In this document: positions 14,544 through 49,254 of the stretch, in pieces | How the letters are laid out: each line of letters begins with the position of its first letter | Numbering within the stretch: the stretch's first letter is position 1 | NCBI RefSeq assembly: GCF_034424315.1 | Contig: NZ_CP139972.1 | Span: 434,001-498,000, forward strand | Length of the DNA stretch: 64,000 nt | Reading direction: 5' to 3' | Source: Chitinophaga sancti | GTDB taxonomy: Bacteria; Bacteroidota; Bacteroidia; Chitinophagales; Chitinophagaceae | Translations under genes and position numbers: made by a program | The notes under the pieces: generated by a model | Seen by the model: the letters and a program-made list of their open reading frames with translations, nothing else | What the model was told of the DNA's origin: nothing | Databases searched by the model: none

Positions 14544-15241
14544 AAAAAGTGGGCAAAGTTTCTTATAAGTGAGCAACTTGCTGTAGCCGGATTTCACATT
14601 ATTATAGTCTAAATGAAATCGCATTACATTTAATCTAAAAACCATGATCAGACACGCAGCTATAGAAGACCTGCCAGCTATTAGAAAGTGGGCAAAGTTC
14701 CTTGTAAGTGAGCAACCTGCTGTTGCCGGATTTCACATTATTATAGTCTAAATGAAATCGCATTACATTTAATCTAAAAACCATGATCAGACACGCAGCT
14801 ATAGAAGACTTGCCAGCTATTAAAAAATGGGCAAAGCTCCTTATAAGTGAGCAACCTGCTGTTGCCGGATTTCACATTATTATAGTCTAAAAGAAATCGC
14901 ATTACATTTAATCTAAAAACCATGATCAGACACGCAGTTATAGAAGACCTGCCAGCTATTAAAAAATGGGCAAAGCTCCTTATAAGTGAGCAACCTGCTG
15001 TTGCCGGATTTCACATTATTATAGTCTAAAAGAAATCGCATTACATTTAATCTAAAAACCATGATCAGACACGCAGCTATAGAAGACTTGCCAGCTATTA
15101 AAAAGTGGGCAAAGCTCCTTATAAGTGAGCAACCTGCTGTTGCCGGATTTCACATTATTATAGTCTAAAAGAAATCGCATTACATTTAATCTAAAAACCA
15201 TGATCAGACACGCAGTTATAGAAGACTTGCCAGCTATTAAA
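14544..15241 (+). repeat. Five tandem 139-bp units carrying the GNAT start region
   Basis: Five consecutive units with an exact 139-bp period and only a few substitutions. The start codon of each recurs at 14644, 14783, 14922, 15061 and 15200. Each unit holds about 100 bp of upstream sequence and the first 13-14 codons of the GNAT gene; the last ATG is the true gene start. The four upstream copies each encode a 35-codon mini-ORF (starting MIRHAAIEDLPAI) that ends at a TAA. The junction sequences share a short A-run, suggesting duplication by slippage at microhomology. Because 139 is not a multiple of three, units are out of frame with each other. Confidence 0.95.
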
Positions 15242-17689: not shown

Positions 17690-17820
17690 GAAAAGCATCG
17701 CCTTAATGGAAAGTATCACTTTTAAAGGAAGGTTTCACTTTTAAAGGAAAGCATAACCTTAAACAGAGTGCATTACCTTTAAAGGAAAGTATCACTTTAA
17801 ACAGAAAGCATCACCCATTA
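17690..17820 (+). repeat. Seven degenerate tandem units of 18-20 bp
   Basis: Directly after the TonB receptor stop are seven imperfect head-to-tail units of 18-20 bp, approximating GGAAAGTATCACTTTTAAA; variants include GGAAGGTTTCACTTTTAAA, CAGAGTGCATTACCTTTAAA and CAGAAAGCATCACCCATTAA. No coding potential and no spacer pattern as in CRISPR. It lies in the 3' UTR of the receptor and the intergenic space to the convergent MFS gene. Confidence 0.8.
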
Positions 17821-29799: not shown

Positions 29800-32700
29800 A
29801 TGAAGAAGATTCTAATCCTATTATGCGGCTGTTTGTTGCTATTTACTGGTATTGCGAGGTCTCAAACCTGGTATGTAAACATGCCCGATACGGTTTGTAT
29901 GTCTACCAATACAGGCTCTGGTGACCAGGTTAAGTTCACCAGTATGAACGCCCAGCTGGCAAGCGGCAAAAATTCAAAGACCACCTGGACCGTTAAGACT
30001 CCGAACAACTCAGAGTCTGATTATAACGTCCTATATACGCAGAACCCATCGGGGGCTACTAAGACAGACAAGCTGAAACTAACGGATCTGCTCACCCTGC
30101 AGTTCCTGACACCGGGTAAATATGTATTTACCCTGACTGTAAGTTATAAGCCTGGTAGTACTGCCACAACAATTACCACCAAGGATAGTCTTTATGTGGT
30201 AGACTGTACGATGTCCACCTGTAGTGGTGGTGATGCACAAATGCCCGGGTTTACTGAGAACTTTGGTACCCTGCCAAGCAATGCCACCCGTATGGCCTAT
30301 TCCCCAAGCTCTGCCATTACTTATCTATATTCTGCATCCGGTGACCCGGCAGATAATTATTATGCGATCTCTAATTCAACCCACCTGAAAGGTGACTGGA
30401 TCACGACCAACGACCATACAGGTACTACCCGTGGTGGTATGCTGGTGTGTAACTCCGGTTTTACAAAATCTACCTTCTTCCAGAAGCAGGTAGATGGACT
30501 TTGTCGTGGTTCAGTATATAATTTTAGTGCCTGGTTTATAAATACGGATAGTTCGCAGGTAATGACGCAAACCTGTGCTTCGGGCTTTATCTATGCCGGG
30601 GTAACTTTCCAGATTCTGAATGCGGCCAATACGAGTCAGGTATTAGCCAGCTTCAAGACCAATGACGTTTCGCCCAACTTTGACAAAGCCACCTGGCAGA
30701 AGTTCGGGGGCTCGTTCACCGTGCCATCTGGTGTGAGTAGTGTAATTGTACGAATTGTCAACAACCATCCTGGAGGCTGTGGTAACGATATTGCGGTGGA
30801 TGATATCCAGTTCTCTTATTGTAGCCCCATCATCCAGGCCGGAATTCTTGGTTCTGCCAGTACCCTGAAAGAGGTTTTGTGCGAGGGCGTTGCTACGACC
30901 CTCGTTTCTTCATATACACCAAAAGCTTATTTTACGAGTCCTGCTTACCAGTGGGAAATGTCTGATGACCAGGGTATAACCTGGTTTAATGTTCCTTATG
31001 GTACTGCCAATAAAGATACCCTCGTCATTAAATCAGGTGAACTGAAAGGTACCAAAGATGTATCTTATGATTACCTGTTCCGTGTCAGGATCTTTGAGGC
31101 CGGAAGCTCTGCGGCTACCTGTGCTGCCCCTTCATCAGCGGTCAAGATCACAATCCTGCCGATGCCTGTCCTGAACCTTACCAAGGCGCAGGTCTGTGTG
31201 GGTGATGAGGTGCTGCTACATGCGTCAGGAGGTTATGATAGATATAGCTGGAACGATTTGGATTCTTCTATCAATACACAAGACAGGTCTATAAAGGTTA
31301 TTAGTGATACAACCATCAAAGTATATGGTTACCTTACTTATAGTGTGGAAAATAAAACCTGTAGGGATTCGAACCAGGCTTTTATCGGTAAGAATGATAA
31401 GCCAGTTGTGGAACTTGCAGCTTCTGATACAGCCATTTGTTTGGGTAACAGGGTGACACTGAGTATTGCGGATGGGCTGGCGCCTACTGCTGCTAATGGT
31501 ATTCATATAAAATGGTATAGGGGTTCGAGTGTTGCTACCGGTACATATTACCCGGATGGTGATGACCAGACAACTGTTGTTTTAAATACAGAAACATTGG
31601 CTGACAGCACCTGGATTGTTGTTGTCACGAATAGTACGTGTACGGTTACTTCAAAACCTCTTACTGTACACCTCACGGAAATACCGGTACCAGATCCGGG
31701 CACACACGTCACTCATTGTGCGGAAAATCCGACTGATGCAGATGGGTATTTCACCATGACGCGTCCTACCATTCCCAATACTAATTCATATTGGACAGTC
31801 ATTGATGTTTCCGGTCCAGGTCTGTCAGGTGATCCTGCCAGTATCAATTTTGGTGATTACGTTCGTTTCGTAACCTCCAATAAAAGGGCTGATGCCACCA
31901 TTAACCTAACTACGCCAGGCATTACCGCTATTCTTCAATATAGATTGCAGGCTGCGGGAAATGCCAATTGTTTGGGTTATGCTTATGATACCCTCACACT
32001 GATTACCGGCGCAACCACAGCTAACGCTGGTCCTGACAGTACCCTCTGTGGCACATCCAACACGTTCGTGATGCAGGCAAATGAGCCGAATGTAGACCTG
32101 ACGGATGATTTCGCAGAGAGTGGCGCCTGGACAATTGTAGGCGGACCTAATGCTGATGTAACCATCGCTGACACAACCGCTTATAATACGACCGTTAAAA
32201 TAAGCAACGGTAAGTACCAGGATGTGACCCTGCGCTGGACCATTAGGAATGTATCAGGTTGCGGAACTAATTATGATGATGTAGTATTACATTATACTGC
32301 ACCGCCAACCATGGTGCTGAAACCAGATACAGTTTGTAACACACTGGGTTATTTCGAAATGGATACTGTTTCTACTACAGGTAATCCTACTTATTATAGT
32401 GTAACCAGTGCGGTACCTGGATTCTCTGCAATACCTGAAACGCAGATCACCTCATGGCCGATCACCGTTCCTATTCCTACAGGTTTAACAAATGCTCAAT
32501 ATACCTTTACTGTCAACTTCAGAAGCGATAATGGGGGTTGTGCCGGATCTGCTACAATCAAAGTAAATGTTGAAACGCCTCCAACTGCGCCAACCGGTGT
32601 AACAGTAGGTTCTCCAAACATTTGTACCAGCGGTACGACTACACTGACTGTTGTCGGTGGTACACTGGGTAAGAATGCAGATGGTACCAATGCTGGTAAA

Positions 32701-35700
32701 TATGTATGGTATGCAGGTGGTTGCGGTACAGGTACTGCAATCGGTACGGGTGCAACTATCACTGTTCCTGTAACTGCAACGACTACTTATTATGTAAGAG
32801 TAGAAAGCAATGGTCAGTGTGGTGTTACTGCCTGTGCAAGTGGTACGGTTACTGTTTATACAGCTCCGGCTACTTCCAATGCAGGTCCTGCACAAACGCA
32901 TTGTAACGACTCCCTCTTTATAATGGCGGCTAATGCTGCTACCGTAGGTGCAGGTAAATGGACAGTGACCAGTGGTACTGCCACCATTCCAACTACTGAC
33001 TCTGCACTTGCTACTGCTAAAATATTTGTACTGGCAGGAAAGACAGCAACGCTGACCTGGACAATTACCAACGGCGCTTGTACTACTTCTTCTACCGTTG
33101 TACTGACTAACTATATGAAACCGGTACCAGCAGATGCGGGTCCGGCTTACATTGAACAGTGTGCGAATCCTTCATTTACAATGAATGCTGTTGCCGCTTC
33201 CCCGGCTACCGCAAGCGGTTCATGGTCAAAATTTGCCGGAAGTAAAGCGAACTTCACAGGTGCAACCAATATTCCAAATGCCCCTGTGACTTTGACAGTT
33301 GGTGATACAGCAACATTGATCTGGACAGTGACTAACGGTACCTGTTCTTCTTCCGATTACATTACTTTATATAATTACGCAACACCGACCGCTGCAAATG
33401 CCGGTCCGGATCTTAGTCAGTGTAACAACGATAAGTTCACCATGACATCCAATACACCAACTATTGGTGTAGGAAAATGGTCAGTGAAGAGTGGTACTGC
33501 AACTTTTGCAAGTACTGATAGTACTAAGACCAATGCCGTGATCACCGTACCTGTGGGTACGACGGTTGTAATGACCTGGACCGTTAAAAACGGCACCTGT
33601 TCATCCGCAGATGATGTTGTATTAATTAACTACCAGCAACCAGGTACAGCGAATGCAGGCCCTGATTCACTGGTACAGTGTAATAATCCTGTGTTCACCA
33701 TGTCAGCGACCAGCCCTACTCCAGCAACAGCAGTAGGCAAATGGTCACTGTTTACAGGTAGCAAGGCTAGTTATACTTTAGCTGATTCCAGCAAGACAAA
33801 TATCGTATTCAACCTGGCAGCAGGTGATTCTGCAACAGCCATCTGGACAGTGACGAACGGTGTCTGCTCCAGTACTGATTACATCATTCTGAAAAATTAC
33901 AAGGCACCAACTGCCGCCAATGCAGGACCACAGATCAGCCAGTGTGCGAATCCAAGCTTTACGATGGCTGCGAATGCAGCAAGTGTAGGTATCGGCACCT
34001 GGACCCTGTCTAACACAAGGTCAACTATCACCGGTAATGTGAATCTCCCGAATACGACCATCAATGTACCAACAGGTGATAGCGTGATCGCTACCTGGAC
34101 GATCGTAAACGGTGCATGTTCTACATCTTCCACGGTGAAACTGGTGAACTATGCAACCCCAACGAAGGCAGTTGCCGGTCCGGCCATCCACCAGTGTGCG
34201 AATGGTTCCTTTACGATGGCCGCGAATACGCCTGTTGTAGGTACGGGTACCTGGACCAAGCCAGCCGGATCAACCGCAGTCTTCTCAGGGAGTGCTAATT
34301 CATCAACGATGGGAGTTACCCTGCCTGCAGGTGACAGCAGTAAATTATACTGGACGATCACCAATGGTGTATGTTCTTCTGTCGATTCAGTATGGATTGT
34401 AAACAACCTTGCTCCTGCAGCAGCAGATGCGGGTCCTGATACCATTAAACATTGTAACAGTGCTCCATTCGTAATGACAGCGAACGCACCATCTGTAGCG
34501 GGTGCTACCGGATGGTGGAGTGTGGTATCTCCTGTTTCCTATACTATTTCAGGTGCCCAGCTGAATAACCCAACTGCAACATTTAATGTAACAGCGGGTC
34601 AGACAGTGGTACTGAAATGGAACATCTCTAATATTGGTTGTTCATCTTCAGACAATATAGTACTGATCAACTATGTACAGCCGACCGCTACTTCTGCGGG
34701 TTCTAACCAGACACATTGTAACGATAGCATCTTTACCGTTACGGGTTCAGCACCAATGGCAGGAGCTAGTGGAACCTGGTATATCCGAAGCAACAATGCC
34801 AGCTTCGTAGGTATACCATCAGGTAATACAGCAACCGTAAAAGTACCAGCTGGCCAGACAGCAACATTACGCTGGGTAATCACCAACGGTGTCTGCGCAG
34901 ACTCCAGCACAGTTACGCTGCTGAACAACATGCAACCGGTAGCAGCAGATGCTGGTCCGGCTTACATTGAGCAGTGTGCGAATCCTTCATTTACAATGAA
35001 TGCAGTTGCAGCTTCCCCTGCTACTGCAAGCGGTTCCTGGTCAAAATTTGCGGGAAGTAAGGCCAACTTCACAGGTGCAACCAATATTCCAAATGCCCCT
35101 GTGACTTTGACAGTTGGTGATTCTGCAACTTTGATCTGGACAGTAACTAACGGTACCTGTTCTTCTTCCGATTACATTACTTTATATAATTACGCAACAC
35201 CAACTGCTGCAAATGCGGGTCCGGATCTTAGTCAGTGTAACAACGATAAGTTTACCATGACATCCAATACACCAACTATTGGTGTAGGAAAATGGTCAGT
35301 GAAGAGTGGTACTGCAACTTTTGCAAGTACTGATAGTACTAAGACCAATGCCGTGATCACTGTACCTGTGGGTACGACGGTTGTAATGACCTGGACCGTT
35401 AAAAACGGCACCTGTTCATCCGCAGATGATGTTGTATTAACTAACTACCAGCAACCAGGTACAGCGAATGCCGGCCCTGATTCACTGGTACAGTGTAATA
35501 ACCCTGTGTTCACCATGTCCGCGACCAGTCCTACTCCGGCAACAGCCGTAGGCAAATGGTCACTGTTCACAGGTAGCAAGGCTAGTTATACTTTAGCTGA
35601 TTCCAGCAAGACAAATATTGTATTCAACCTGGCAGCAGGTGATACGGCAACAGCCATCTGGACAGTAACGAACGGTGTCTGCTCCAGTACTGATTACATC

Positions 35701-38700
35701 ATCCTGAAAAATTACAAGGCACCAACTGCCGCGAATGCAGGACCACAGATCAGCCAGTGTGCAAATCCAAGCTTTACGATGGCTGCAAATGCAGCAAGTG
35801 TAGGTATCGGCACCTGGACCCTGTCTAACACAAGGTCAACCATCACCGGTAATGTGAATCTGCCGAATACGACCATCAATGTACCAACAGGTGATAGCGT
35901 GATCGCTACCTGGACGATCGTAAACGGTGCATGTTCTACATCTTCTACGGTGAAACTGGTGAACTATGCAACCCCAACGAAGGCAGTTGCCGGTCCGGCC
36001 ATCCACCAGTGTGCGAATGGTTCCTTTACGATGGCCGCGAATACGCCTGTTGTAGGTACGGGTACCTGGACCAAGCCAGCCGGATCAACCGCAGTCTTCT
36101 CAGGGAGTGCTAATTCATCAACGATGGGAGTTACCCTGCCTGCAGGTGACAGCAGTAAATTATACTGGACGATCACCAATGGTGTATGTTCTTCTGTCGA
36201 TTCAGTATGGATTGTAAACAACCTTGCTCCTGCAGCAGCAGATGCGGGTCCTGATACCATTAAACATTGTAACAGTGCTCCATTCGTAATGACAGCGAAC
36301 GCACCATCTGTAGCGGGTGCTACCGGATGGTGGAGTGTTGTTTCCCCTGCTGCTTATACTATTTCAGGTGCCCAGCTGAATAACCCAACTGCAACATTTA
36401 ATGTAACAGCGGGTCAGACAGTGGTACTGAAATGGAACATCTCTAATATTGGTTGTTCATCTTCAGACAATATTGTACTGATCAACTACGTACAGCCGAC
36501 CGCTACTTCTGCGGGTTCTAACCAGACACATTGTAACGATAGCATCTTTACCGTTACGGGTTCAGCACCAATGGCAGGGGCCAGTGGAACCTGGTATATC
36601 CGAAGCAACAATGCCAGCTTCGTAGGTACCCCATCAGGTAATACAGCAACAGTAAAAGTACCAGCGGGCCAGACGGCAACATTACGCTGGGTAATCACCA
36701 ACGGTGTCTGCGCAGACTCCAGCACGGTAACGCTGCTGAACAACATGCAACCGGTAGCAGCAGATGCTGGTCCGGCTTACATTGAGCAGTGTGCGAATCC
36801 TTCATTTACAATGAATGCAGTTGCAGCTTCCCCTGCTACCGCAAGCGGTTCCTGGTCAAAATTTGCGGGAAGTAAGGCCAACTTCACAGGTGCAACCAAT
36901 ATTCCAAATGCCCCTGTGACTTTGACAGTTGGTGATTCTGCAACTTTGATCTGGACAGTAACTAACGGTACCTGTTCTTCTTCCGATTACATTACTTTAT
37001 ATAATTACGCAACACCAACTGCTGCAAATGCGGGTCCGGATCTTAGTCAGTGTAACAACGATAAGTTTACCATGACATCCAATACACCAACTATTGGTGT
37101 AGGAAAATGGTCAGTGAAGAGTGGTACTGCAACTTTTGCAAGTACTGATAGTACTAAGACAAATGCAGTGATCACCGTACCTGTGGGTACGACGGTTGTA
37201 ATGACCTGGACCGTTAAAAACGGCACCTGTTCATCCGCAGATGATGTTGTATTAACTAACTACCAGCAACCAGGTACAGCGAATGCCGGCCCTGATTCAC
37301 TGGTACAGTGTAATAACCCTGTGTTCACCATGTCAGCGACCAGCCCTACTCCGGCAACAGCCGTAGGCAAATGGTCACTGTTCACAGGTAGCAAGGCTAG
37401 TTATACTTTAGCTGATTCCAGCAAGACAAATATTGTATTCAACCTGGCAGCAGGTGATACGGCAACAGCCATCTGGACAGTAACGAACGGTGTCTGCTCC
37501 AGTACTGATTACATCATCCTGAAAAATTACAAGGCACCAACTGCCGCGAATGCAGGACCACAGATCAGCCAGTGTGCAAATCCAAGCTTTACGATGGCTG
37601 CAAATGCAGCAAGTGTAGGTATCGGCACCTGGACCCTGTCTAACACAAGGTCAACCATCACCGGTAATGTGAATCTGCCGAATACGACCATCAATGTACC
37701 AACAGGTGATAGCGTGATCGCTACCTGGACGATCGTAAACGGTGCATGTTCTACATCTTCTACGGTGAAACTGGTGAACTATGCAACCCCAACGAAGGCA
37801 GTTGCCGGTCCGGCCATCCACCAGTGTGCGAATGGTTCCTTTACGATGGCCGCGAATACGCCTGTTGTAGGTACGGGTACCTGGACCAAGCCAGCCGGAT
37901 CAACCGCAGTCTTCTCAGGGAGTGCTAATTCATCAACGATGGGAGTTACCCTGCCTGCAGGTGACAGCAGTAAATTATACTGGACGATCACCAATGGTGT
38001 ATGTTCTTCTGTGGATTCCGTATGGATTGTCAATAACCTTGCTCCTGCAGCAGCAGATGCGGGTCCTGATACTATTAAACATTGTAACAGTGCTCCATTC
38101 GTAATGACAGCGAACGCTCCTTCAGTAGCGGGTGCTACCGGATGGTGGAGTGTGGTATCTCCTGTTTCCTATACTATTTCAGGTGCCCAGCTGAATAACC
38201 CAACTGCAACATTTAATGTAACAGCGGGTCAGACAGTGGTACTGAAATGGAACATCTCTAATATTGGTTGTTCATCTTCAGACAATATAGTACTGATCAA
38301 CTATGTACAGCCGACCGCTACTTCTGCGGGTTCTAACCAGACACATTGTAACGATAGCATCTTTACCGTTACGGGTTCAGCACCAATGGCAGGAGCTAGT
38401 GGAACCTGGTATATCCGAAGCAACAATGCCAGCTTCGTAGGTATACCATCAGGTAATACAGCAACCGTAAAAGTACCAGCTGGCCAGACAGCAACATTAC
38501 GCTGGGTAATCACCAACGGTGTCTGCGCAGACTCCAGCACAGTTACGCTGCTGAACAACATGCAACCGGTAGCAGCAGATGCTGGTCCGGCTTACATTGA
38601 GCAGTGTGCGAATCCTTCATTTACAATGAATGCAGTTGCAGCTTCCCCTGCTACTGCAAGCGGTTCCTGGTCAAAATTTGCGGGAAGTAAGGCCAACTTC

Positions 38701-41700
38701 ACAGGTGCAACCAATATTCCAAATGCCCCTGTGACTTTGACAGTTGGTGATTCTGCAACTTTGATCTGGACAGTAACTAACGGTACCTGTTCTTCTTCCG
38801 ATTACATTACTTTATATAATTACGCAACACCAACTGCTGCAAATGCGGGTCCGGATCTTAGTCAGTGTAACAACGATAAGTTTACCATGACATCCAATAC
38901 ACCAACTATTGGTGTAGGAAAATGGTCAGTGAAGAGTGGTACTGCAACTTTTGCAAGTACTGATAGTACTAAGACCAATGCCGTGATCACTGTACCTGTG
39001 GGTACGACGGTTGTAATGACCTGGACCGTTAAAAACGGCACCTGTTCATCCGCAGATGATGTTGTATTAACTAACTACCAGCAACCAGGTACAGCGAATG
39101 CCGGCCCTGATTCACTGGTACAGTGTAATAACCCTGTGTTCACCATGTCCGCGACCAGTCCTACTCCGGCAACAGCCGTAGGCAAATGGTCACTGTTCAC
39201 AGGTAGCAAGGCTAGTTATACTTTAGCTGATTCCAGCAAGACAAATATTGTATTCAACCTGGCAGCAGGTGATTCTGCAACTGCCATCTGGACAGTAACG
39301 AACGGAGTCTGCTCCAGTACTGATTACATCATCCTGAAAAATTACCAGGCACCAACTGCCGCGAATGCAGGACCACAGATCAGCCAGTGTGCAAATCCAA
39401 GCTTTACGATGGCTGCGAATGCAGCAAGTGTAGGTATCGGCGCCTGGACCCTGTCTAACACAAGGTCAACTATCACCGGTAATGTGAATCTCCCGAATAC
39501 GACCATCAATGTACCAACAGGTGATAGCGTGATCGCTACCTGGACGATCGTAAACGGTGCATGTTCAACATCTTCTACGGTGAAACTGGTGAACTATGCA
39601 ACCCCAACGAAGGCAGTTGCCGGTCCGGCCATCCACCAGTGTGCGAATGGTTCCTTTACGATGGCCGCGAATACAGCTGTTGTAGGTACGGGTACCTGGA
39701 CCAAGCCAGCCGGATCAACCGCAGTCTTCTCAGGGAGCGCTAATTCATCAACGATGGGAGTTACCCTGCCTGCAGGTGACAGCAGTAAATTATACTGGAC
39801 GATCACCAATGGTGTATGTTCTTCTGTGGATTCCGTATGGATTGTCAATAACCTTGCTCCTGCAGCAGCAGATGCGGGTCCTGATACTATTAAACATTGT
39901 AACAGTGCTCCATTCGTAATGACAGCGAACGCTCCTTCAGTAGCGGGTGCTACCGGATGGTGGAGTGTGGTATCTCCTGTTTCCTATACTATTTCAGGTG
40001 CCCAGCTGAATAACCCAACTGCAACATTTAATGTAACAGCGGGTCAGACAGTGGTACTGAAATGGAACATCTCTAATATTGGTTGTTCATCTTCAGACAA
40101 TATAGTACTGATCAACTATGTACAGCCGACCGCTACTTCTGCGGGTTCTAACCAGACACATTGTAACGATAGCATCTTTACCGTTACGGGTTCAGCACCA
40201 ATGGCAGGAGCTAGTGGAACCTGGTATATCCGAAGCAACAATGCCAGCTTCGTAGGTATACCATCAGGTAATACAGCAACCGTAAAAGTACCAGCTGGCC
40301 AGACAGCAACATTACGCTGGGTAATCACCAACGGTGTCTGCGCAGACTCCAGCACAGTTACGCTGCTGAACAACATGCAACCGGTAGCAGCAGATGCTGG
40401 TCCGGCTTACATTGAGCAGTGTGCGAATCCTTCATTTACAATGAATGCAGTTGCAGCTTCCCCTGCTACTGCAAGCGGTTCCTGGTCAAAATTTGCGGGA
40501 AGTAAGGCCAACTTCACAGGTGCAACCAATATTCCAAATGCCCCTGTGACTTTGACAGTTGGTGATTCTGCAACTTTGATCTGGACAGTAACTAACGGTA
40601 CCTGTTCTTCTTCCGATTACATTACTTTATATAATTACGCAACACCAACTGCTGCAAATGCGGGTCCGGATCTTAGTCAGTGTAACAACGATAAGTTTAC
40701 CATGACATCCAATACACCAACTATTGGTGTAGGAAAATGGTCAGTGAAGAGTGGTACTGCAACTTTTGCAAGTACTGATAGTACTAAGACAAATGCAGTG
40801 ATCACCGTACCTGTGGGTACGACGGTTGTAATGACCTGGACCGTTAAAAACGGCACCTGTTCATCCGCAGATGATGTTGTATTAACTAACTACCAGCAAC
40901 CAGGTACAGCGAATGCCGGCCCTGATTCACTGGTACAGTGTAATAACCCTGTGTTCACCATGTCAGCGACCAGCCCTACTCCGGCAACAGCCGTAGGCAA
41001 ATGGTCACTGTTTACAGGTAGCAAGGCTAGTTATACTTTAGCTGATTCCAGCAAGACAAATATTGTATTCAACCTGGCAGCAGGTGATACGGCAACAGCC
41101 ATCTGGACAGTGACGAACGGTGTCTGCTCCAGCACAGATTACATCATTCTAAAAAATTACAAGGCACCAACTGCCGCCAATGCAGGACCACAGATCAGCC
41201 AGTGTGCGAATCCAAGCTTTACGATGGCTGCAAATGCAGCAAGTGTAGGTATCGGCACCTGGACACTGTCAACAACCAGGTCAACCATCACCGGTAATGT
41301 GAATCTCCCGAATACGACCATCAATGTACCAGCGGGAGATAGTGTGATTGCTACCTGGACGATCGTAAACGGTGCATGTTCAACATCTTCTACGGTGAAA
41401 CTGGTGAACTATGCAACGCCAACGAAGGCAGTTGCCGGTCCGGCCATCCACCAGTGTGCAAATGGTTCCTTTACGATGGCAGCGAATACACCTGTTGTGG
41501 GTACCGGTACCTGGACCAAGCCTGCCGGATCAACCGCATTCTTCTCCGGCAGTGATCATTCATCAGCGATGGGAGTTACCCTGCCTGCAGGTGATAGCAG
41601 TAAACTATACTGGACGATCACCAATGGTGTATGTTCTTCTGTGGATTCCGTATGGATTGTCAATAATCTTGCTCCGGCAGCAGCAGATGCAGGCCCTGAT

Positions 41701-44700
41701 ACCATTAAGCATTGTAACAGTGCTCCATTCGTAATGACAGCGAACGCACCATCTGTAGCTGGTGCTACCGGATGGTGGAGTGTTGTTTCCCCTGCTGCTT
41801 ATACCATTTCAGGTGCACAGCTGAATAACCCAACTGCTACATTTAATGTAACAGCGGGTCAGACAGTGGTATTGAAATGGAACATCTCTAATATTGGTTG
41901 TTCATCTTCAGACAATATAGTACTGATCAACTACGTACAGCCGACGGCTACCTCTGCGGGTTCTAACCAGACACATTGTAACGATAGCATCTTTACCGTT
42001 ACGGGTTCAGCACCAATGGCAGGAGCCAGTGGAACCTGGTATATCCGAAGCAACAATGCCAGCTTCGTAGGTATACCATCAGGTAATACAGCAACCGTAA
42101 AAGTACCAGCGGGCCAGACGGCAACATTACGCTGGGTAATCACCAACGGTGTCTGCGCAGACTCCAGCACAGTAACGCTGCTGAACAACATGCAACCGGT
42201 AGCAGCAGATGCTGGTCCGGCTTACATTGAGCAGTGTGCGAATCCTTCATTTACAATGAATGCAGTTGCCGCCTCTCCGGCTACCGCAAGCGGTTCATGG
42301 TCAACCTTCGCGGGAAGTAAAGCTGCTATCACTGGTGGCGGTACTACTCCAAATGCTACCGTAACAATGGCAGCAGGCGATACCGCAACATTGATCTGGA
42401 CAGTAACTAACGGTACCTGTTCTTCTTCCGATTACATTATTTTATATAATTACGCAACACCGACTGCTGCAAATGCAGGACCGGATCTTAGCCAGTGTAA
42501 CAATCCTAAGTTCACGGTGGCATCCAATACACCAACTATTGGTGTAGGAAAATGGTCAGTGAAGAGTGGTACGGCAACATTTGCAAGTACAGATAGTTCC
42601 TTGACCAATGCAGTGATCACCGTACCTGTGGGAACGACCGCAGTAATGACCTGGACCGTTAAAAACGGCACCTGTTCTTCTGCAGATGATGTTGTATTAA
42701 CTAACTACCAGCAACCAGGTACAGCGAATGCAGGCCCTGATTCACTGGTACAGTGTAATAATCCTGTGTTCACCATGTCAGCGACCAGCCCTACTCCAGC
42801 AACAGCAGTAGGCAAATGGTCACTGTTCACAGGTAGCAAGGCTAGTTATACTTTAGCTGATTCCAGCAAGACAAATATTGTATTCAACCTGGCAGCAGGT
42901 GATTCCGCAACAGCCATCTGGACAGTGACGAACGGTGTCTGCTCCAGTACTGATTACATCATTCTGAAAAATTACCAGGCACCAACTGCCGCCAATGCAG
43001 GACCACAGATCAGCCAGTGTGCGAATCCAAGCTTTACGATGGCTGCAAATGCAGCAAGTGTAGGTATCGGCACCTGGACCCTGTCTAACACAAGGTCAAC
43101 TATCACCGGTAATGTGAATCTGCCGAATACGACTATCAATGTACCAGCAGGTGATAGCGTGATCGCTACCTGGACGATCGTAAACGGTGCATGTTCTACA
43201 TCGTCTACGGTGAAACTGGTGAACTATGCAACCCCAACGAAGGCAGTTGCCGGTCCGGCCATCCACCAGTGTGCGAATGGTTCCTTTACGATGGCCGCGA
43301 ATACAGCTGTTGTAGGTACGGGTACCTGGACCAAGCCAGCCGGATCAACCGCAGTCTTCTCAGGGAGTGCTAATTCATCAACGATGGGAGTTACCCTGCC
43401 TGCAGGTGACAGCAGTAAATTATACTGGACGATCACCAATGGGGTATGTTCTTCTGTCGATTCAGTATGGATTGTAAACAACCTTGCTCCAGCAGCAGCA
43501 GATGCGGGTCCTGATACTATTAAGCATTGTAACGACGATGTCTTCGCAATGACAGCAAATGCTCCTTCAGTAGCTGGTGCTACCGGTTACTGGACGGCAG
43601 TATCTCCTGCTTCCTATACCATTACCAGTGCCCAGCTGAATGATCCAAATGCAACATTTAATGTAACAGCGGGTCAGACAGTGGAACTGAAATGGAATAT
43701 TTCAAATATCGGTTGTTCATCTTCAGACAATATAGTGCTGGTCAACTACGAACAGCCAACTGCAGTAACTGCGGGTCTTGATCAAACCAAGTGTGCGGGT
43801 TCTGCCTTCGTACTGGATGGTTCTGTACCAAATGTTACCGGTGCGATCGGTACCTGGTATGTCCGCAACGGTATTGCGACTATCAATACCGGCGAAGAGC
43901 ATAACACTAACGCACATATTACCCTGCCAAACGATGCTTCTGCTGAATTACATTGGGTAGTAACAAATGGTACATGCGCTGACTCAGCAGCTGTAATCCT
44001 GACCAACTACCTCACACCGGTGAAAGCTGATGCAGGTGTAGATTCCATCAAGCATTGTGCGGATAGCGTATTCGTTATGAACGCGAATGCGCCTGATGTA
44101 ACAGGTGCTGTTGGTGTATGGACATTCCTGAATCCTACTACCATTCCGCTGCCAGCTGATTCAAATAATCCGAATATTACCTTCATTATCCCTGCAGGTG
44201 ATAGCGTGATCGCTGTATGGTCCATCGGCAACGGTACATGTTCTACCAGCGACCAGATCAAACTGGTGAACTATATGGCACCGACTGCAGCAGCTGTACC
44301 AGCTGATATGCAACAGTGTATGACTACCACATTCCCTGTCACAGCGAATGCGCCTGACGTACCTGGTGCAATTGGTTACTGGTCAGTAGTGAAAGGTAAT
44401 GCTACCTTCCCGACCACGGACTCCAGCAAGAACAGCACTACTTTCACTGTTCCAAATGGTGACAGTGCATATGTAACCTGGACCCTGACCAATGGTCTCT
44501 GTAGCAGTTCTGCAACTATTAAACTGTACAACTATCAGCAGCCGGCACCGGCAGAAGCAGGTGCAGACTCACTGGTACAGTGTAATAATCCTGTGTTCAA
44601 CATGGCAGCGACCGCGCCAAACCTTGCTACCGCAGTAGGTAAATGGTCTCTGTATCCGGGTAGTAAAGCAAACTTCAGCCCTGCTGACTCTAACAATATT

Positions 44701-47700
44701 AATGCAGTTATTAACCTCACTCCAGGTGATACCGCAACAGCAATATGGACGGTAACAAATGGTGTCTGCACTACTTCCGATAAGATTATGCTGAAGAACT
44801 ACCAGGCACCAGCACCGGCTGACGCGGGTCCTGATTCTATCAAGCATTGTAGTAATCCGGTATTCACAATGAGTGCTACTGCTCCAAGCCTGGCTACTGC
44901 GACTGGTAAGTGGACATTATCTAACCCGAAGGCAATAATGGCTGCTGCTGATACCAACAAGATCAATGCGGTGATCAACGTACCTGCGGGCGACAGCGTA
45001 ATAGCTACATGGACTGTAACAAACGGTGTATGTGCTACATCAGATGTGATCAAACTGGTGAACTACCAGCAACCAACAGCAGCAGCTGCAGGTAGCGATA
45101 CCCACCAGTGTGCAGTGAAGGACTTCGTGATGACAGCTAATACACCTGATGTACCGGGTGCCGTTGGAACCTGGACTTTACCAGCCGGTTCTACTGCTAC
45201 CATGCCAATAACTGACATTCATTTACCTAATATTAAAATTACCGTACCGGAAGGTGACAGCGTAATAGCTACCTGGACCATCACCAATGGTGTATGTACA
45301 TCCAGCAGCACGGTGAAACTGGTAAATGATAAGATGCCAACGCCGGCGAATGCGGGTACAGCCCAGACACATTGTGCTGACTCTGCCTTCGTGATGACTG
45401 CTAATGCAGCATCCATCGGTACAGGTACCTGGTCATTCTACACTGGTTCCAAAGCAAGCATTGCTCCGGCAGATAAAAACACGCCAACTGCAACCATCTA
45501 TGTTCCGGCGGGAGATACAGCCACTGCTATCTGGACGATTACCAATAACTCCTGTGCTACCAGCAGTACTGTCTTCCTGAAGAATGACATGATGCCTGAA
45601 ACCGCTAATGCAGGTGCTAACCAGGTTCATTGTAATGACTCTGCGTTTATCATGAATGCAACAGCAGGCCTGCTCCCTGGTTCTAAGGGCACATGGACTG
45701 TCCTGAGCGGTATCGCATATATCAATAGCTTAGATCTGAATAATCCAACTGCCAAGGTATTAGTATATGTAAATACTTCCGCTACCCTACAGTGGACCCT
45801 GAGCAATGGTACATGTACCGGTACTCCGGCTACTGTAACACTGACTAACCTCGGACCAGTAGTGGGTAACACCATCTCTGCTGATCAGACAGTATGTGCT
45901 GCCGAAACACCAGCCATGCTGAAAGGAACGACTACCCTGAGTGGTGGTAATGGTACCTTCAGCTACCAGTGGCAGATGAGCACTACAAATGCAACAAGCG
46001 GATTCACTAACGTTACAACAGGTACCGGTGGCACCGCTGCCAGCTACACACCAGCTACACTGAGCGCTGATACCGTATGGTTCAGAAGAATTGTAAGCTC
46101 AGGCGCTTGTAGCACTACCATGAGCAACGTGGTGAAGATCAGAAGAGTCACTACATCTCCGGTGGTTGTATCTGTACCATCCGCAATCACTACTGATTGT
46201 ATCCTTGGTAAAGACTATACTACCATGTTCGGTACACCGGTATTCAGCCATGCGCCATTTACAAGCGAAGCGCTGACGGTTACCTACACTGATAATACAA
46301 CAACGCCGGATGCGTGTCATACACTCATCAGCCGTACATGGACAGCCGTTGACCGTTGTGGTCTCACAACGACTGCACAGCAGACCATCACCGTGGTTGA
46401 TACCAAGGCACCGGTGTTCACTGGCACAGCACCTGCTGATGTGACTGTAGAATGTGATAAGGTGCCTGTTGCTGTCAACCTGTCTGCAAACGATGCATGT
46501 ATGGGTGTGCTGACGATAGCGCCAATCGAAACAAGAATTGATATAGCCGGTCAGTGTTCCAGCAACTACTACCTGGTCCGTAAATGGGTGGCTGTAGATA
46601 ATTGTGGTAACGCCAGCGATACGCTGAAACAGACCATTACCGTCAGAGACCTCACCGGTCCTGTATTCACCGGTACTGCGCCTGCAAACATGACGGTAGA
46701 TTGTGATAAGGTACCAGCTGCGGCTCCACTGACCGCTACTGACAACTGTACACCTGGTGTCATCACCGTAACACCGGTAGATACAAGACAATCTATCTCC
46801 GGTGCTAAGTGTAACAATACTTACCAGCTCACCCGTACATGGACAGCTACCGATAATTGCGGTAACTCAACCATCCTGAGACAGGTGATCACCGTACAGG
46901 ATACGACCAGGCCAGCGTTCTCAATGACCTTAGTTGCTGATACAACTGTGAACTGTGATGCAGTACCTGATATCCCGACTATCACAGCTAAAGACAACTG
47001 TTCTGCAAGTGTGAATGTAAAAGTATCCCAGACGAAGGTGTTCCTGAGCACTACCTGCTCTAACAACTATCGCCTGACCCGTACATGGACCGCTGCTGAT
47101 GATTGTGGTAACACCGCAACTATGAAGCAGGTGATCACTGTACAGGATACGACCAGGCCAAAATTCAGAACGGCACCTCCTGCTGATACTACCGTAAGTT
47201 GTAGCGCTGTACCAACACCGCCTACCAACATATCAGCTACTGATAACTGTAGTGCTACCAGCAATGTGAAGGTGACCTACTCCCAGACGCGTCAGGCGAT
47301 CGCCGGGTCTTGCGCAGGCAATTACCAGCTGATCAGGGTTTGGACAGCGAAAGACGAGTGTGGTAATACAAATATTGTTCGTCAGGTAATCACAGTGGCA
47401 GACACCACCAAACCAGTGATCGATCCGGCTCCGGCTGCTGTCACTGTAAGTTGTGGAGGTACGATACCAGCTGCTGCTACCCTGTACGCAACTGACAACT
47501 GTGATGGCAACTTCCCTAAGAAAGCGACCATGACTACCGATCCATATACTGTGGATGCTTGTAACGGTTACACCATCACCAGAAGATGGAATGTAACAGA
47601 TGCATGTGGTAATGCCGCTATCGAAAGAGTACAGGTGATTACAGTAACAGCATGTCCGAAACCACAACTGGAAGCGAACCTGCCTGTTAACTGTTCTGAC

Positions 47701-49254
47701 AATACGAAGTTCTCTATCCAGTTGCTGACCAAAGTAAGCAAACCAACATTTACACTGCAGAGCGTATATCCTGCAGGTGCCATAACCACACCGAAGGTGC
47801 AGACCAGCAATGTGTTTGACCTGCCAGGTGTAACCCAGGCTACCTTCATCGTAACTGATGGCGTAACCGGTTGTGTATCTGACCCGGTAACGTATACCCT
47901 GCAGTTTGTACAGAAACCAACTGTGAACCTGGGTGCTGATGTAGCTATCTGTGAGGGCGGTACCGTAACCCTGGATGCAGGTGCGGCCAATGCAAGCGCA
48001 GGCTACGCCATCAAGTGGAGCACAGGTGCAACTACCCAACAGATCACTGTATCTGCTTCCGGCACATACACTGTCACGGTCACTAATAATGGTTGTTCCG
48101 CAACCGGCTCTGTGAAAGTAACGGTGAACAAACCGCCGGTGGTTACACTGAAAGATGCAACTATCTGTGCCGGCGAAACAGTGAAACTGAACGCTTATGT
48201 ACAGGGCGCATCTTACGTATGGAGTACAGGTGATACCGGACCATCTATCGAAGTAAGTACCGCAGGTACCTATAGTGTAGATGTATCACTGAATGGTTGT
48301 ACCGTAACAGCTCAGGCAAACATCACCGTGTCTGCACCGCCAAACATAACCGTCACACCTGATCCATCAGTTTGTCCTGGTCAAACAGCAATGCTGCAGG
48401 TTGAACCGGATGGTGGTAGTGTGAAATGGAGTGATGGCTCACTGACTAATTCAATCGTTGTATCTAAACCTGGAGACTACTGGGTAACTGTAACGAAGAA
48501 TGGTTGTGTGGTGACCGATACCCTGCACGTGACCAACAAGGCAAATCTCAACATTAACCTTGGACCAGATAAGGATATCTGTATCGGAGGCCTGGTAGTA
48601 CTGGATGCAACCAATCCTGATGCGATCTCTTACCTCTGGAACGATGGTACAACAGATCCGGTTAGAGAAGTAAGCACACCAGGTACTTATTCAGTAACTG
48701 TTCTTGACAGGAATTGTAACCTGACATCTACCGCCAGCGTAAAAGTAACGGTAGCTGGTATCGGGAATATTTCCCTGGGCAATGATACTACGATCTGTAT
48801 CGGTCAGACCCTGACCCTGAACGTAGATGCCGGTACCGGTAACAGCGTAAGATGGCAGGATGGTACAACTACTTCTAAATATGTAGTAACACAGACCGGT
48901 TATTATAAGGTAACTGTTTATAATGATTGTGGTTCTGTTACAGATGATATCACAGTAACTTACAAGCAATGTGAAGCGAAGCCAGACTTCCCGAATGCGT
49001 TCACGCCGAACGGTGATGGTCATAACGATACGTTTAAACCACACGTAAACGGTCCGATGTACGATTACGATCTGCGCGTCTACAACCGTTGGGGCCAGGT
49101 AGTGTTCCTGAGCAGAGATCTCACCAAAGGATGGGATGGTCGATTCCAGGGCACGTTGGTAGATGTAGGTACATATGTGTATCTGTTGAGCTATAAAAAT
49201 ACGGCTGCTGGTGAAACGAGGATTGTGAAGGGTGAAGTGTCCGTAATCAGGTAA
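29800..49254 (+). CDS. Giant T9SS-exported surface protein with nested Ig-like repeats, 6,484 residues
   Basis: One uninterrupted 19.5-kb frame. Signal peptide MKKILILLCGCLLLFTGIARSQ. Residues about 30-350 hold a beta-sandwich domain with VNNHPGGCGNDIAVDDIQF, as in carbohydrate-binding or choice-of-anchor domains. Several Ig/PKD-like domains follow. Residues 1108-4739 contain six copies of a 605-residue higher-order unit, each built of seven Ig-like modules of about 86 residues. A module begins AGP-x-QC and has one Cys near each end, so an internal disulfide is likely. Residues 4740-5354 are a diverged seventh set, about 5461-5954 are HYR-like modules (WTAxDxCGN...ITVxDTTxP), and about 5955-6394 are PKD-like modules. 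The end is a T9SS type B sorting domain starting FPNAFTPNGDGHND, typical of gliding-motility-associated adhesins. Likely displayed on the outer membrane as a long, stiff adhesin; ligand unknown. Confidence 0.96.
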   Translation: MKKILILLCGCLLLFTGIARSQTWYVNMPDTVCMSTNTGSGDQVKFTSMNAQLASGKNSKTTWTVKTPNNSESDYNVLYTQNPSGATKTDKLKLTDLLTLQFLTPGKYVFTLTVSYKPGSTATTITTKDSLYVVDCTMSTCSGGDAQMPGFTENFGTLPSNATRMAYSPSSAITYLYSASGDPADNYYAISNSTHLKGDWITTNDHTGTTRGGMLVCNSGFTKSTFFQKQVDGLCRGSVYNFSAWFINTDSSQVMTQTCASGFIYAGVTFQILNAANTSQVLASFKTNDVSPNFDKATWQKFGGSFTVPSGVSSVIVRIVNNHPGGCGNDIAVDDIQFSYCSPIIQAGILGSASTLKEVLCEGVATTLVSSYTPKAYFTSPAYQWEMSDDQGITWFNVPYGTANKDTLVIKSGELKGTKDVSYDYLFRVRIFEAGSSAATCAAPSSAVKITILPMPVLNLTKAQVCVGDEVLLHASGGYDRYSWNDLDSSINTQDRSIKVISDTTIKVYGYLTYSVENKTCRDSNQAFIGKNDKPVVELAASDTAICLGNRVTLSIADGLAPTAANGIHIKWYRGSSVATGTYYPDGDDQTTVVLNTETLADSTWIVVVTNSTCTVTSKPLTVHLTEIPVPDPGTHVTHCAENPTDADGYFTMTRPTIPNTNSYWTVIDVSGPGLSGDPASINFGDYVRFVTSNKRADATINLTTPGITAILQYRLQAAGNANCLGYAYDTLTLITGATTANAGPDSTLCGTSNTFVMQANEPNVDLTDDFAESGAWTIVGGPNADVTIADTTAYNTTVKISNGKYQDVTLRWTIRNVSGCGTNYDDVVLHYTAPPTMVLKPDTVCNTLGYFEMDTVSTTGNPTYYSVTSAVPGFSAIPETQITSWPITVPIPTGLTNAQYTFTVNFRSDNGGCAGSATIKVNVETPPTAPTGVTVGSPNICTSGTTTLTVVGGTLGKNADGTNAGKYVWYAGGCGTGTAIGTGATITVPVTATTTYYVRVESNGQCGVTACASGTVTVYTAPATSNAGPAQTHCNDSLFIMAANAATVGAGKWTVTSGTATIPTTDSALATAKIFVLAGKTATLTWTITNGACTTSSTVVLTNYMKPVPADAGPAYIEQCANPSFTMNAVAASPATASGSWSKFAGSKANFTGATNIPNAPVTLTVGDTATLIWTVTNGTCSSSDYITLYNYATPTAANAGPDLSQCNNDKFTMTSNTPTIGVGKWSVKSGTATFASTDSTKTNAVITVPVGTTVVMTWTVKNGTCSSADDVVLINYQQPGTANAGPDSLVQCNNPVFTMSATSPTPATAVGKWSLFTGSKASYTLADSSKTNIVFNLAAGDSATAIWTVTNGVCSSTDYIILKNYKAPTAANAGPQISQCANPSFTMAANAASVGIGTWTLSNTRSTITGNVNLPNTTINVPTGDSVIATWTIVNGACSTSSTVKLVNYATPTKAVAGPAIHQCANGSFTMAANTPVVGTGTWTKPAGSTAVFSGSANSSTMGVTLPAGDSSKLYWTITNGVCSSVDSVWIVNNLAPAAADAGPDTIKHCNSAPFVMTANAPSVAGATGWWSVVSPVSYTISGAQLNNPTATFNVTAGQTVVLKWNISNIGCSSSDNIVLINYVQPTATSAGSNQTHCNDSIFTVTGSAPMAGASGTWYIRSNNASFVGIPSGNTATVKVPAGQTATLRWVITNGVCADSSTVTLLNNMQPVAADAGPAYIEQCANPSFTMNAVAASPATASGSWSKFAGSKANFTGATNIPNAPVTLTVGDSATLIWTVTNGTCSSSDYITLYNYATPTAANAGPDLSQCNNDKFTMTSNTPTIGVGKWSVKSGTATFASTDSTKTNAVITVPVGTTVVMTWTVKNGTCSSADDVVLTNYQQPGTANAGPDSLVQCNNPVFTMSATSPTPATAVGKWSLFTGSKASYTLADSSKTNIVFNLAAGDTATAIWTVTNGVCSSTDYIILKNYKAPTAANAGPQISQCANPSFTMAANAASVGIGTWTLSNTRSTITGNVNLPNTTINVPTGDSVIATWTIVNGACSTSSTVKLVNYATPTKAVAGPAIHQCANGSFTMAANTPVVGTGTWTKPAGSTAVFSGSANSSTMGVTLPAGDSSKLYWTITNGVCSSVDSVWIVNNLAPAAADAGPDTIKHCNSAPFVMTANAPSVAGATGWWSVVSPAAYTISGAQLNNPTATFNVTAGQTVVLKWNISNIGCSSSDNIVLINYVQPTATSAGSNQTHCNDSIFTVTGSAPMAGASGTWYIRSNNASFVGTPSGNTATVKVPAGQTATLRWVITNGVCADSSTVTLLNNMQPVAADAGPAYIEQCANPSFTMNAVAASPATASGSWSKFAGSKANFTGATNIPNAPVTLTVGDSATLIWTVTNGTCSSSDYITLYNYATPTAANAGPDLSQCNNDKFTMTSNTPTIGVGKWSVKSGTATFASTDSTKTNAVITVPVGTTVVMTWTVKNGTCSSADDVVLTNYQQPGTANAGPDSLVQCNNPVFTMSATSPTPATAVGKWSLFTGSKASYTLADSSKTNIVFNLAAGDTATAIWTVTNGVCSSTDYIILKNYKAPTAANAGPQISQCANPSFTMAANAASVGIGTWTLSNTRSTITGNVNLPNTTINVPTGDSVIATWTIVNGACSTSSTVKLVNYATPTKAVAGPAIHQCANGSFTMAANTPVVGTGTWTKPAGSTAVFSGSANSSTMGVTLPAGDSSKLYWTITNGVCSSVDSVWIVNNLAPAAADAGPDTIKHCNSAPFVMTANAPSVAGATGWWSVVSPVSYTISGAQLNNPTATFNVTAGQTVVLKWNISNIGCSSSDNIVLINYVQPTATSAGSNQTHCNDSIFTVTGSAPMAGASGTWYIRSNNASFVGIPSGNTATVKVPAGQTATLRWVITNGVCADSSTVTLLNNMQPVAADAGPAYIEQCANPSFTMNAVAASPATASGSWSKFAGSKANFTGATNIPNAPVTLTVGDSATLIWTVTNGTCSSSDYITLYNYATPTAANAGPDLSQCNNDKFTMTSNTPTIGVGKWSVKSGTATFASTDSTKTNAVITVPVGTTVVMTWTVKNGTCSSADDVVLTNYQQPGTANAGPDSLVQCNNPVFTMSATSPTPATAVGKWSLFTGSKASYTLADSSKTNIVFNLAAGDSATAIWTVTNGVCSSTDYIILKNYQAPTAANAGPQISQCANPSFTMAANAASVGIGAWTLSNTRSTITGNVNLPNTTINVPTGDSVIATWTIVNGACSTSSTVKLVNYATPTKAVAGPAIHQCANGSFTMAANTAVVGTGTWTKPAGSTAVFSGSANSSTMGVTLPAGDSSKLYWTITNGVCSSVDSVWIVNNLAPAAADAGPDTIKHCNSAPFVMTANAPSVAGATGWWSVVSPVSYTISGAQLNNPTATFNVTAGQTVVLKWNISNIGCSSSDNIVLINYVQPTATSAGSNQTHCNDSIFTVTGSAPMAGASGTWYIRSNNASFVGIPSGNTATVKVPAGQTATLRWVITNGVCADSSTVTLLNNMQPVAADAGPAYIEQCANPSFTMNAVAASPATASGSWSKFAGSKANFTGATNIPNAPVTLTVGDSATLIWTVTNGTCSSSDYITLYNYATPTAANAGPDLSQCNNDKFTMTSNTPTIGVGKWSVKSGTATFASTDSTKTNAVITVPVGTTVVMTWTVKNGTCSSADDVVLTNYQQPGTANAGPDSLVQCNNPVFTMSATSPTPATAVGKWSLFTGSKASYTLADSSKTNIVFNLAAGDTATAIWTVTNGVCSSTDYIILKNYKAPTAANAGPQISQCANPSFTMAANAASVGIGTWTLSTTRSTITGNVNLPNTTINVPAGDSVIATWTIVNGACSTSSTVKLVNYATPTKAVAGPAIHQCANGSFTMAANTPVVGTGTWTKPAGSTAFFSGSDHSSAMGVTLPAGDSSKLYWTITNGVCSSVDSVWIVNNLAPAAADAGPDTIKHCNSAPFVMTANAPSVAGATGWWSVVSPAAYTISGAQLNNPTATFNVTAGQTVVLKWNISNIGCSSSDNIVLINYVQPTATSAGSNQTHCNDSIFTVTGSAPMAGASGTWYIRSNNASFVGIPSGNTATVKVPAGQTATLRWVITNGVCADSSTVTLLNNMQPVAADAGPAYIEQCANPSFTMNAVAASPATASGSWSTFAGSKAAITGGGTTPNATVTMAAGDTATLIWTVTNGTCSSSDYIILYNYATPTAANAGPDLSQCNNPKFTVASNTPTIGVGKWSVKSGTATFASTDSSLTNAVITVPVGTTAVMTWTVKNGTCSSADDVVLTNYQQPGTANAGPDSLVQCNNPVFTMSATSPTPATAVGKWSLFTGSKASYTLADSSKTNIVFNLAAGDSATAIWTVTNGVCSSTDYIILKNYQAPTAANAGPQISQCANPSFTMAANAASVGIGTWTLSNTRSTITGNVNLPNTTINVPAGDSVIATWTIVNGACSTSSTVKLVNYATPTKAVAGPAIHQCANGSFTMAANTAVVGTGTWTKPAGSTAVFSGSANSSTMGVTLPAGDSSKLYWTITNGVCSSVDSVWIVNNLAPAAADAGPDTIKHCNDDVFAMTANAPSVAGATGYWTAVSPASYTITSAQLNDPNATFNVTAGQTVELKWNISNIGCSSSDNIVLVNYEQPTAVTAGLDQTKCAGSAFVLDGSVPNVTGAIGTWYVRNGIATINTGEEHNTNAHITLPNDASAELHWVVTNGTCADSAAVILTNYLTPVKADAGVDSIKHCADSVFVMNANAPDVTGAVGVWTFLNPTTIPLPADSNNPNITFIIPAGDSVIAVWSIGNGTCSTSDQIKLVNYMAPTAAAVPADMQQCMTTTFPVTANAPDVPGAIGYWSVVKGNATFPTTDSSKNSTTFTVPNGDSAYVTWTLTNGLCSSSATIKLYNYQQPAPAEAGADSLVQCNNPVFNMAATAPNLATAVGKWSLYPGSKANFSPADSNNINAVINLTPGDTATAIWTVTNGVCTTSDKIMLKNYQAPAPADAGPDSIKHCSNPVFTMSATAPSLATATGKWTLSNPKAIMAAADTNKINAVINVPAGDSVIATWTVTNGVCATSDVIKLVNYQQPTAAAAGSDTHQCAVKDFVMTANTPDVPGAVGTWTLPAGSTATMPITDIHLPNIKITVPEGDSVIATWTITNGVCTSSSTVKLVNDKMPTPANAGTAQTHCADSAFVMTANAASIGTGTWSFYTGSKASIAPADKNTPTATIYVPAGDTATAIWTITNNSCATSSTVFLKNDMMPETANAGANQVHCNDSAFIMNATAGLLPGSKGTWTVLSGIAYINSLDLNNPTAKVLVYVNTSATLQWTLSNGTCTGTPATVTLTNLGPVVGNTISADQTVCAAETPAMLKGTTTLSGGNGTFSYQWQMSTTNATSGFTNVTTGTGGTAASYTPATLSADTVWFRRIVSSGACSTTMSNVVKIRRVTTSPVVVSVPSAITTDCILGKDYTTMFGTPVFSHAPFTSEALTVTYTDNTTTPDACHTLISRTWTAVDRCGLTTTAQQTITVVDTKAPVFTGTAPADVTVECDKVPVAVNLSANDACMGVLTIAPIETRIDIAGQCSSNYYLVRKWVAVDNCGNASDTLKQTITVRDLTGPVFTGTAPANMTVDCDKVPAAAPLTATDNCTPGVITVTPVDTRQSISGAKCNNTYQLTRTWTATDNCGNSTILRQVITVQDTTRPAFSMTLVADTTVNCDAVPDIPTITAKDNCSASVNVKVSQTKVFLSTTCSNNYRLTRTWTAADDCGNTATMKQVITVQDTTRPKFRTAPPADTTVSCSAVPTPPTNISATDNCSATSNVKVTYSQTRQAIAGSCAGNYQLIRVWTAKDECGNTNIVRQVITVADTTKPVIDPAPAAVTVSCGGTIPAAATLYATDNCDGNFPKKATMTTDPYTVDACNGYTITRRWNVTDACGNAAIERVQVITVTACPKPQLEANLPVNCSDNTKFSIQLLTKVSKPTFTLQSVYPAGAITTPKVQTSNVFDLPGVTQATFIVTDGVTGCVSDPVTYTLQFVQKPTVNLGADVAICEGGTVTLDAGAANASAGYAIKWSTGATTQQITVSASGTYTVTVTNNGCSATGSVKVTVNKPPVVTLKDATICAGETVKLNAYVQGASYVWSTGDTGPSIEVSTAGTYSVDVSLNGCTVTAQANITVSAPPNITVTPDPSVCPGQTAMLQVEPDGGSVKWSDGSLTNSIVVSKPGDYWVTVTKNGCVVTDTLHVTNKANLNINLGPDKDICIGGLVVLDATNPDAISYLWNDGTTDPVREVSTPGTYSVTVLDRNCNLTSTASVKVTVAGIGNISLGNDTTICIGQTLTLNVDAGTGNSVRWQDGTTTSKYVVTQTGYYKVTVYNDCGSVTDDITVTYKQCEAKPDFPNAFTPNGDGHNDTFKPHVNGPMYDYDLRVYNRWGQVVFLSRDLTKGWDGRFQGTLVDVGTYVYLLSYKNTAAGETRIVKGEVSVIR
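33121..44016 (+). repeat. Six tandem 1,815-bp units within the giant gene
   Basis: Units start at 33121, 34936, 36751, 38566, 40381 and 42196, each with PVxADAGPAYIEQC. The first five are exactly 1,815 bp; the last is 1,821 bp. Inside each are seven modules beginning AYIEQC, DLSQC, DSLVQC, QISQC, AIHQC, DTIKHC and NQTHC. Units 1-4 are nearly identical at the DNA level including silent sites; unit 5 and the start and end of unit 6 carry most changes. Small variants (PVSYTI or PAAYTI; GIPSGN or GTPSGN) are distributed as a mosaic, pointing to recombination or gene conversion. Confidence 0.97.
44017..45860 (+). repeat. Diverged seventh set of seven Ig-like modules
   Basis: Seven more modules of the same type (DSIKHC, DMQQC, DSLVQC, DSIKHC, DTHQC, AQTHC, NQVHC) in almost the same overall length as one unit but with many substitutions. 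It looks like an older, no longer homogenised copy of the 605-residue unit. Confidence 0.75.

Follow-up and report, generated by a model that had tools for sequence, protein, structure and literature searches.

Anatomy of gene A

The window analysed here, a stretch of 64,000 nucleotides from the single-contig genome of Chitinophaga sancti (8.42 Mb; positions 434001-498000), contains a giant gene, here called gene A, that forms one uninterrupted open reading frame (ORF) of 6,484 aa. Its product starts with an N-terminal region of 1,021 aa, continues with 50 modules in tandem (aa 1022 to about 5351) and ends with further domains, including four HYR_4C stretches and a type-B sorting domain of the type IX secretion system (T9SS). 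The array reads g0, a-b-c-d-e-f, five times g-a-b-c-d-e-f, g6 and t1-t7. Because g6 is only 46% identical to g and thus a different module, the array consists of six a-f hexads linked by five g modules.

Self-matches of the gene are strongest at a lag of 1,815 bp, followed by 3,630, 5,445, 7,260 and 9,075 bp. This gives a super-repeat of 605 aa with unit borders at 33118 + 1,815k; at this period units 1-5 and modules a-f of unit 6 align without gaps. The first-pass annotation described a nested repeat (seven times 86 residues, six times 605 residues) at 33121..44016. The reading frame, the period and the fixed order of seven types stand, and its limits lie near the borders given above; unit 6, however, is complete for a-f alone, and the array extends further on both sides, with g0 before and t1-t7 after (Table 1).

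Modules are 84-89 aa long (mean within a unit 86.4). The types a-g share 34-55% identity, and direct neighbours are 42% identical on average (maximum 62%). For 41 of the 50 modules the best partner is more than 80% identical and lies at a multiple of seven. A structure model of unit 3 predicts beta-sandwich (Ig-like) modules, with which the fold matches agree, as the first-pass annotation had proposed; its label of surface protein is likewise consistent with the type-B sorting domain. All Pfam and NCBIfam matches of the core modules stay under the curated cut-off. In two relatives, unrelated families (e.g. NAD_kinase_C, DUF1344) exceed the cut-off on the units by summed score while no single stretch does, which we attribute to repetition. 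The tail shows raised identities (c-t3 69%, d-t4 56%, e-t5 51%), but we do not claim it as an ancient heptad: t4 is about as near to c (57%) as to d, and t5 is nearer to d (56%) than to e. In the five one-heptad genes, lag 7 is not the best lag.

Table 1. Features of gene A, in window coordinates
Feature	Position	Strand	Remarks
Gene A, giant T9SS type-B surface protein	29800..49254	+	single ORF, 6,484 aa; C-terminal CHU_C / TIGR04131
Candidate signal-peptide-like N-terminus	29800..29868	+	translation judged by eye
CBM4/CBM16-like jelly-roll domain (aa 147-341), candidate binding tip	30238..30822	+	
Ig_7 domain (CHU_C-associated)	32581..32856	+	Pfam PF19081, E 5.3e-8
Module g0	32863..33117	+	single-copy head module
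Unit 1	33118..34932	+	modules a-g
Unit 2	34933..36747	+	modules a-g
Unit 3	36748..38562	+	modules a-g; structure model pLDDT 92.3
Unit 4	38563..40377	+	modules a-g
Unit 5	40378..42192	+	modules a-g; d and e rich in private differences
Unit 6	42193..43752	+	a-f only; edge copy, partly diverged in a, b, f
Module g6, array-ending marker	43753..44013	+	176 bits against 87 for the gene's next best module
Tail modules t1-t7	44014..45852	+	diverged
HYR_4C, best of four stretches (aa 5874-5949)	47419..47646	+	PF23237, E 9.5e-26
T9SS type-B sorting domain	48985..49251	+	TIGR04131 E 3.8e-16; CHU_C E 1.1e-17

Mosaicism between units and length steps among relatives

Pairs among units 1-5 show 19-89 base changes and 3-13 changes in their 605 residues, with a synonymous divergence (pS) of 0.033-0.167 against a nonsynonymous divergence (pN) of 0.0022-0.0099 (pN/pS 0.04-0.09). 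Among their 114 polymorphic columns, 91 fall in codons without amino-acid change. Unit 6 is more divergent, namely in modules a and b, the latter half of f and most of all its last module. The pattern contradicts the earlier statement that copies agree even at silent sites and does not support a very recent amplification: silent sites differ by up to 17% whereas the protein is nearly constant, and therefore the array is old enough to have collected silent changes while being conserved at the protein level.

The variants among units 1-5 form a mosaic that is best explained by conversion or crossing-over. The four-gamete test is failed by 382 of the 666 informative site pairs, and neighbouring sites are incompatible less often than after permutation (0.253 against 0.575, P=0.0005). 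Shared runs are longer than in the permutations for nine out of ten unit pairs (P 0.002 or less), the exception being pair 1-5 (P=0.62). This supports the earlier reading of the variants as a mosaic. Alleles private to a single unit number 26, 6, 0, 6 and 39 in units 1 to 5. Import of the unit 5 alleles from a paralogue in the same genome, here called B, is unsupported, as B agrees with unit 5 at 13 of the 39 sites and with the other units at 14.

A related N-terminal region is found in 21 named loci (16 in Chitinophaga, four in '[Flexibacter] sp. ATCC 35208' and one in an uncultured Flavihumibacter), the nearest being that of C. silvisoli. Genomes are labelled by G-numbers below, and a suffix (A, A2, B, x) denotes the gene within the genome. 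Units 1-5 of gene A are mutually 95-99% identical in DNA against 67-73% to the gene A units of G048, G053 and G052, a pattern of concerted evolution.

To describe array lengths, modules were counted on both sides of the g6 marker. We found 38 runs of eight or more modules, of which 17 could be scored. The others were broken or reached a contig end (eight: G045_A in three pieces, G045_A2, G052_A, G052_A2, G048_A, G016_x), contained stretches of N within the array or at its end (G054_x with 5 modules before and 7 after the marker, G052_B with 7 and 7), had no clear g6 (six G066/G032 rows and the two distant genes of G010 and G065) or were short paralogues (three). In 14 of the 17 scored genes the marker is preceded by 7, 14, 21, 28 or 42 modules; it is followed by 7 modules in 14 genes and by 14 in three. 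The marker of G075_x is less distinct (88 bits against 76). A cruder count, in which the total equals 1 modulo 7, holds for 17 of 27 genes (G052_B included; excluded are broken or truncated genes, C paralogues, G054_x and six distant genes, G010 having 29 modules, G065 32 and the rest few or scattered ones). Since the genes are related, we do not use its binomial P.

Relatives and paralogues therefore differ by whole heptads or units. The hexads of gene A number four in G053, five in G045 (frame broken) and six in the window genome. Between G052 and G053 the N-terminal region is 99.8% identical in DNA over 2,928 bp; G053 unit 1 is the closest match of both unit 1 and unit 2 of G052 (96.7% and 95.6%), G053 unit 2 that of unit 3 (97.0%) and G053 unit 3 that of unit 4 as far as the latter could be read (98.2%). 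These matches would fit one extra heptad, though G052 is a draft and the case is suggestive only.

The step is not the same throughout the genus. Repeats of five modules occur in G075, G066 and G032 (with other lags scoring as well as lag 5 in two of the G066 genes), and single-module repeats in G070, G010 and G065. Alike pairs in G015_x are found nine times at lag 1 against six at lag 7. The three scored genes that are off register all have alike neighbours (66-72% mean identity), and in the clade whose neighbours are unlike each of the seven scored genes is on register. Length thus seems to change by whichever lag brings similar DNA together. Two more distant giants of the same genus, L099 (G005) and L101 (G073), have other long self-match periods, of 403 aa and 361 aa, and super-repeats may thus be common in this protein family.

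Blocks seem to move between paralogues too. In G053, typing of the modules shows that paralogue B has a single hexad and lacks g; module count and marker position indicate the same for G045 and G048, whereas B of the window genome has two hexads with one g between them. At the DNA level this g matches that of gene A at about 92% (249/270 bases), against about 71% (257/360) for the DNA preceding it. Moreover, A and A2 of G045 are 97% identical over 10.7 kb whereas A2 of G053 has the single-heptad form. The frames of both G045 genes (L063, L067) are broken in a single-contig genome, due to either sequencing errors or decay. Significant block mosaicism of g0 and g6 is seen in the linking g of G053_A and of G045_A2, two near-copies of each other (P=0.0001 for either), which suggests that a crossover between g6 and g0 brought about the first doubling of the block.

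Explanations for the seven-module step

Taken together, gene A probably encodes a giant, T9SS-exported adhesive rod at the cell surface, with a stalk super-repeat that changes length by in-register recombination. The protein would be exported by the T9SS and held at the outer membrane through its C-terminal type-B sorting domain, and the CBM4-like jelly-roll domain near the N-terminus would be presented far out on a stalk of 50 beta-sandwich modules. Adhesion at a distance, to glycans, other cells or surfaces, is its most likely function. Seven divergent modules would form one block of 1.8 kb; unequal crossing-over would add or remove such blocks and gene conversion would homogenise them. As likeness is limited to modules seven apart, recombination would take place in register only, and length would consequently change in steps of seven modules while neighbours stay dissimilar, and the protein's reach may change with it. 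If such modules measure 3.5-4 nm, each heptad would add roughly 25-30 nm.

A number of observations weigh against this reading. Three of the 17 scored genes are off a multiple of seven (16, 17 and 13 modules before g6), as are the short paralogues, where 5, 5 and 4 modules precede the best g6-like one, and the scored genes are related, such that their counts are not independent trials. At the 77 sites with a single-unit allele, gene A of the relatives agrees with that unit at 27 and with the other four at 43 (7 undecided), so that the outgroups separate old from new alleles poorly. A g0/g6 block mosaic was not detected in the g of G000_A (P=0.36), G000_B (P=0.58) or G048_A (P=0.23), so that evidence for the proposed crossing-over origin comes from relatives only. 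Part of the jelly-roll domain is modelled with low confidence. Finally, type-B proteins are proposed to anchor via PorP-like partners (PMC9143113), and no PorP/SprF gene lies beside gene A, the nearest of 15 being 29 kb downstream.

Alternatively, selection might keep the seven-module period, for instance as one structural turn or to match a partner lattice (as with titin and the thick filament), with recombination merely supplying copies. We consider this fairly unlikely. It would explain why multiples of seven occur on both sides of the marker even in a clade with recombinable neighbours of 64-75% mean identity (G001, G015, G016, G017, G021, G035, G037, G068; G016 is cut short and unscored), and the pN/pS values between units 1-5 are in its favour. 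Yet the same genus contains the five-module and single-module lineages described above, and the off-register counts all come from genes with similar neighbours.

The closest match of known structure is GhpA, the grappling-hook protein of the predatory bacterium Aureispira sp. CCB-QB1 (PDB 9flp, 9fly and others), also a T9SS substrate of similar length (5,898 aa) with homologous tandem modules, located in its base; the C-terminal ends are homologous too (E 7.9e-28). GhpA hooks are heptamers (PMC11205867). Gene A could then be a working relative, i.e. an oligomeric grappling hook that catches other cells, in a genome that carries T9SS genes (two SprA, 15 PorP/SprF) and a Bacteroidota-type TssC gene of the type VI secretion system (found via PF17541; PF05943 has no match in the genome). 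This is unlikely: aa 21-1020 have no sequence match to GhpA, and relatives of the tail modules are widespread in giant T9SS proteins (79 of 861 candidates scored). A match in fold between aa 21-1020 and the hook may nevertheless exist; among the fold matches listed, GhpA is represented by its base alone, at rank 47.

It also seems doubtful that gene A is a gliding-motility adhesin like SprB of Flavobacterium johnsoniae. SprB is likewise a giant type-B T9SS surface protein (PMC9143113 for the sorting domain), and public names of the relatives read 'gliding motility-associated C-terminal domain', but this name reflects the sorting domain alone; moreover, the Pfam search (E 0.01) gave no SprB repeat (PF13573) and an adjacent SprF partner is lacking. 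A literature search for Chitinophaga tandem-repeat gliding adhesins gave no match.

That the unit number is an assembly artefact is very improbable: draft contigs of several relatives do stop within the gene or array, and unit 3 has no private allele (which weakens the argument from polymorphism), but the window genome is a single contig, the units are told apart by the polymorphic columns and two other single-contig genomes have 4 and 5 units.

Genomic context, known systems and meaning

Two small genes away from gene A, a beta-1,3-glucanase (GH64) with CBM6 and a Por secretion tail is encoded at 50581-52776 (-). The stop of a second giant ORF (about 7,041 aa; window 56989-64000, continuing to genome position 512114) overlaps the start of the nearest PorP/SprF gene, resembling an SprB-SprF pair; this ORF carries tandem-95/cadherin-like repeats of 285 bp, 12 copies of which lie inside the window. 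Elsewhere, a 139-bp tandem repeat (14540-15241; five copies, 96% matches) lies across the start of an ORF of 174 aa, itself upstream of a TonB-dependent receptor gene, and imperfect 19/38-bp repeats occur between TonB-dependent receptor and MFS transporter genes (17692-17815).

To our knowledge, BAP of Acinetobacter is not a T9SS protein. It resembles gene A as a giant protein with several types of Ig-like modules of 80-110 aa, although the available text of PMC4647330 describes no heptad super-repeat. Periscope proteins share with gene A near-identical tandem DNA repeats and a stalk with an N-terminal binding domain (a candidate here); their repeat number varies between strains (PMC8201768, PMC9704523), that of the gene A family between relatives and paralogues. 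In Periscope proteins, single domains are repeated and adjacent domains are nearly identical, whereas here a seven-domain block is repeated in a T9SS-exported protein and neighbours stay within the identities given above. BadA of Bartonella henselae is likewise an adhesin with a stalk reshuffled by recombination, involving pseudogene relatives, and with a strain-variable domain number; in one strain, long reads revealed repeated motifs of four domains each (PMC8859334). It is a trimeric autotransporter with coiled-coil and neck domains (18-34 stalk domains) rather than beta-sandwich modules, and the available text describes no genus-wide fixed step (PMC8859334). BadA, an adhesin with a different fold, is thus a precedent for repeats that span several domains. 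Closest in form are the A-band super-repeats of titin, in which tandem beta-sandwich domains form multi-domain super-repeats and the C-zone copies are most alike while the edges have diverged (PMC10665226). Titin is eukaryotic and not homologous as a gene; in the gene A family, unit number varies among relatives and copies are homogenised within the gene. The 'super-repeat' of PMC3257693 is a mucin reference.

Nearly identical neighbours, as in Periscope proteins, are described as a misfolding problem, since the identity of adjacent domains in large proteins is usually under 50% (PMC8201768); the same argument, with a limit of 40%, is put forward in the BAP paper (PMC4647330). Variation in repeat number and low neighbour identity are therefore in conflict, and a seven-domain super-repeat would satisfy both. 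We tentatively propose that it permits length variation by homologous recombination while neighbours stay too unlike to misfold together. It is not a necessity, given that neighbours in G010 and G065 average 87-88% identity. If the proposal is true, one genus supplies its own controls (seven-, five- and single-module arrays), with a length step in each that matches the spacing of its similar DNA, and this Chitinophaga series of repeat schemes makes the misfolding idea testable. In addition, a module type without a Pfam model, found in many giant T9SS proteins, is now tied to a solved structure, that of GhpA.
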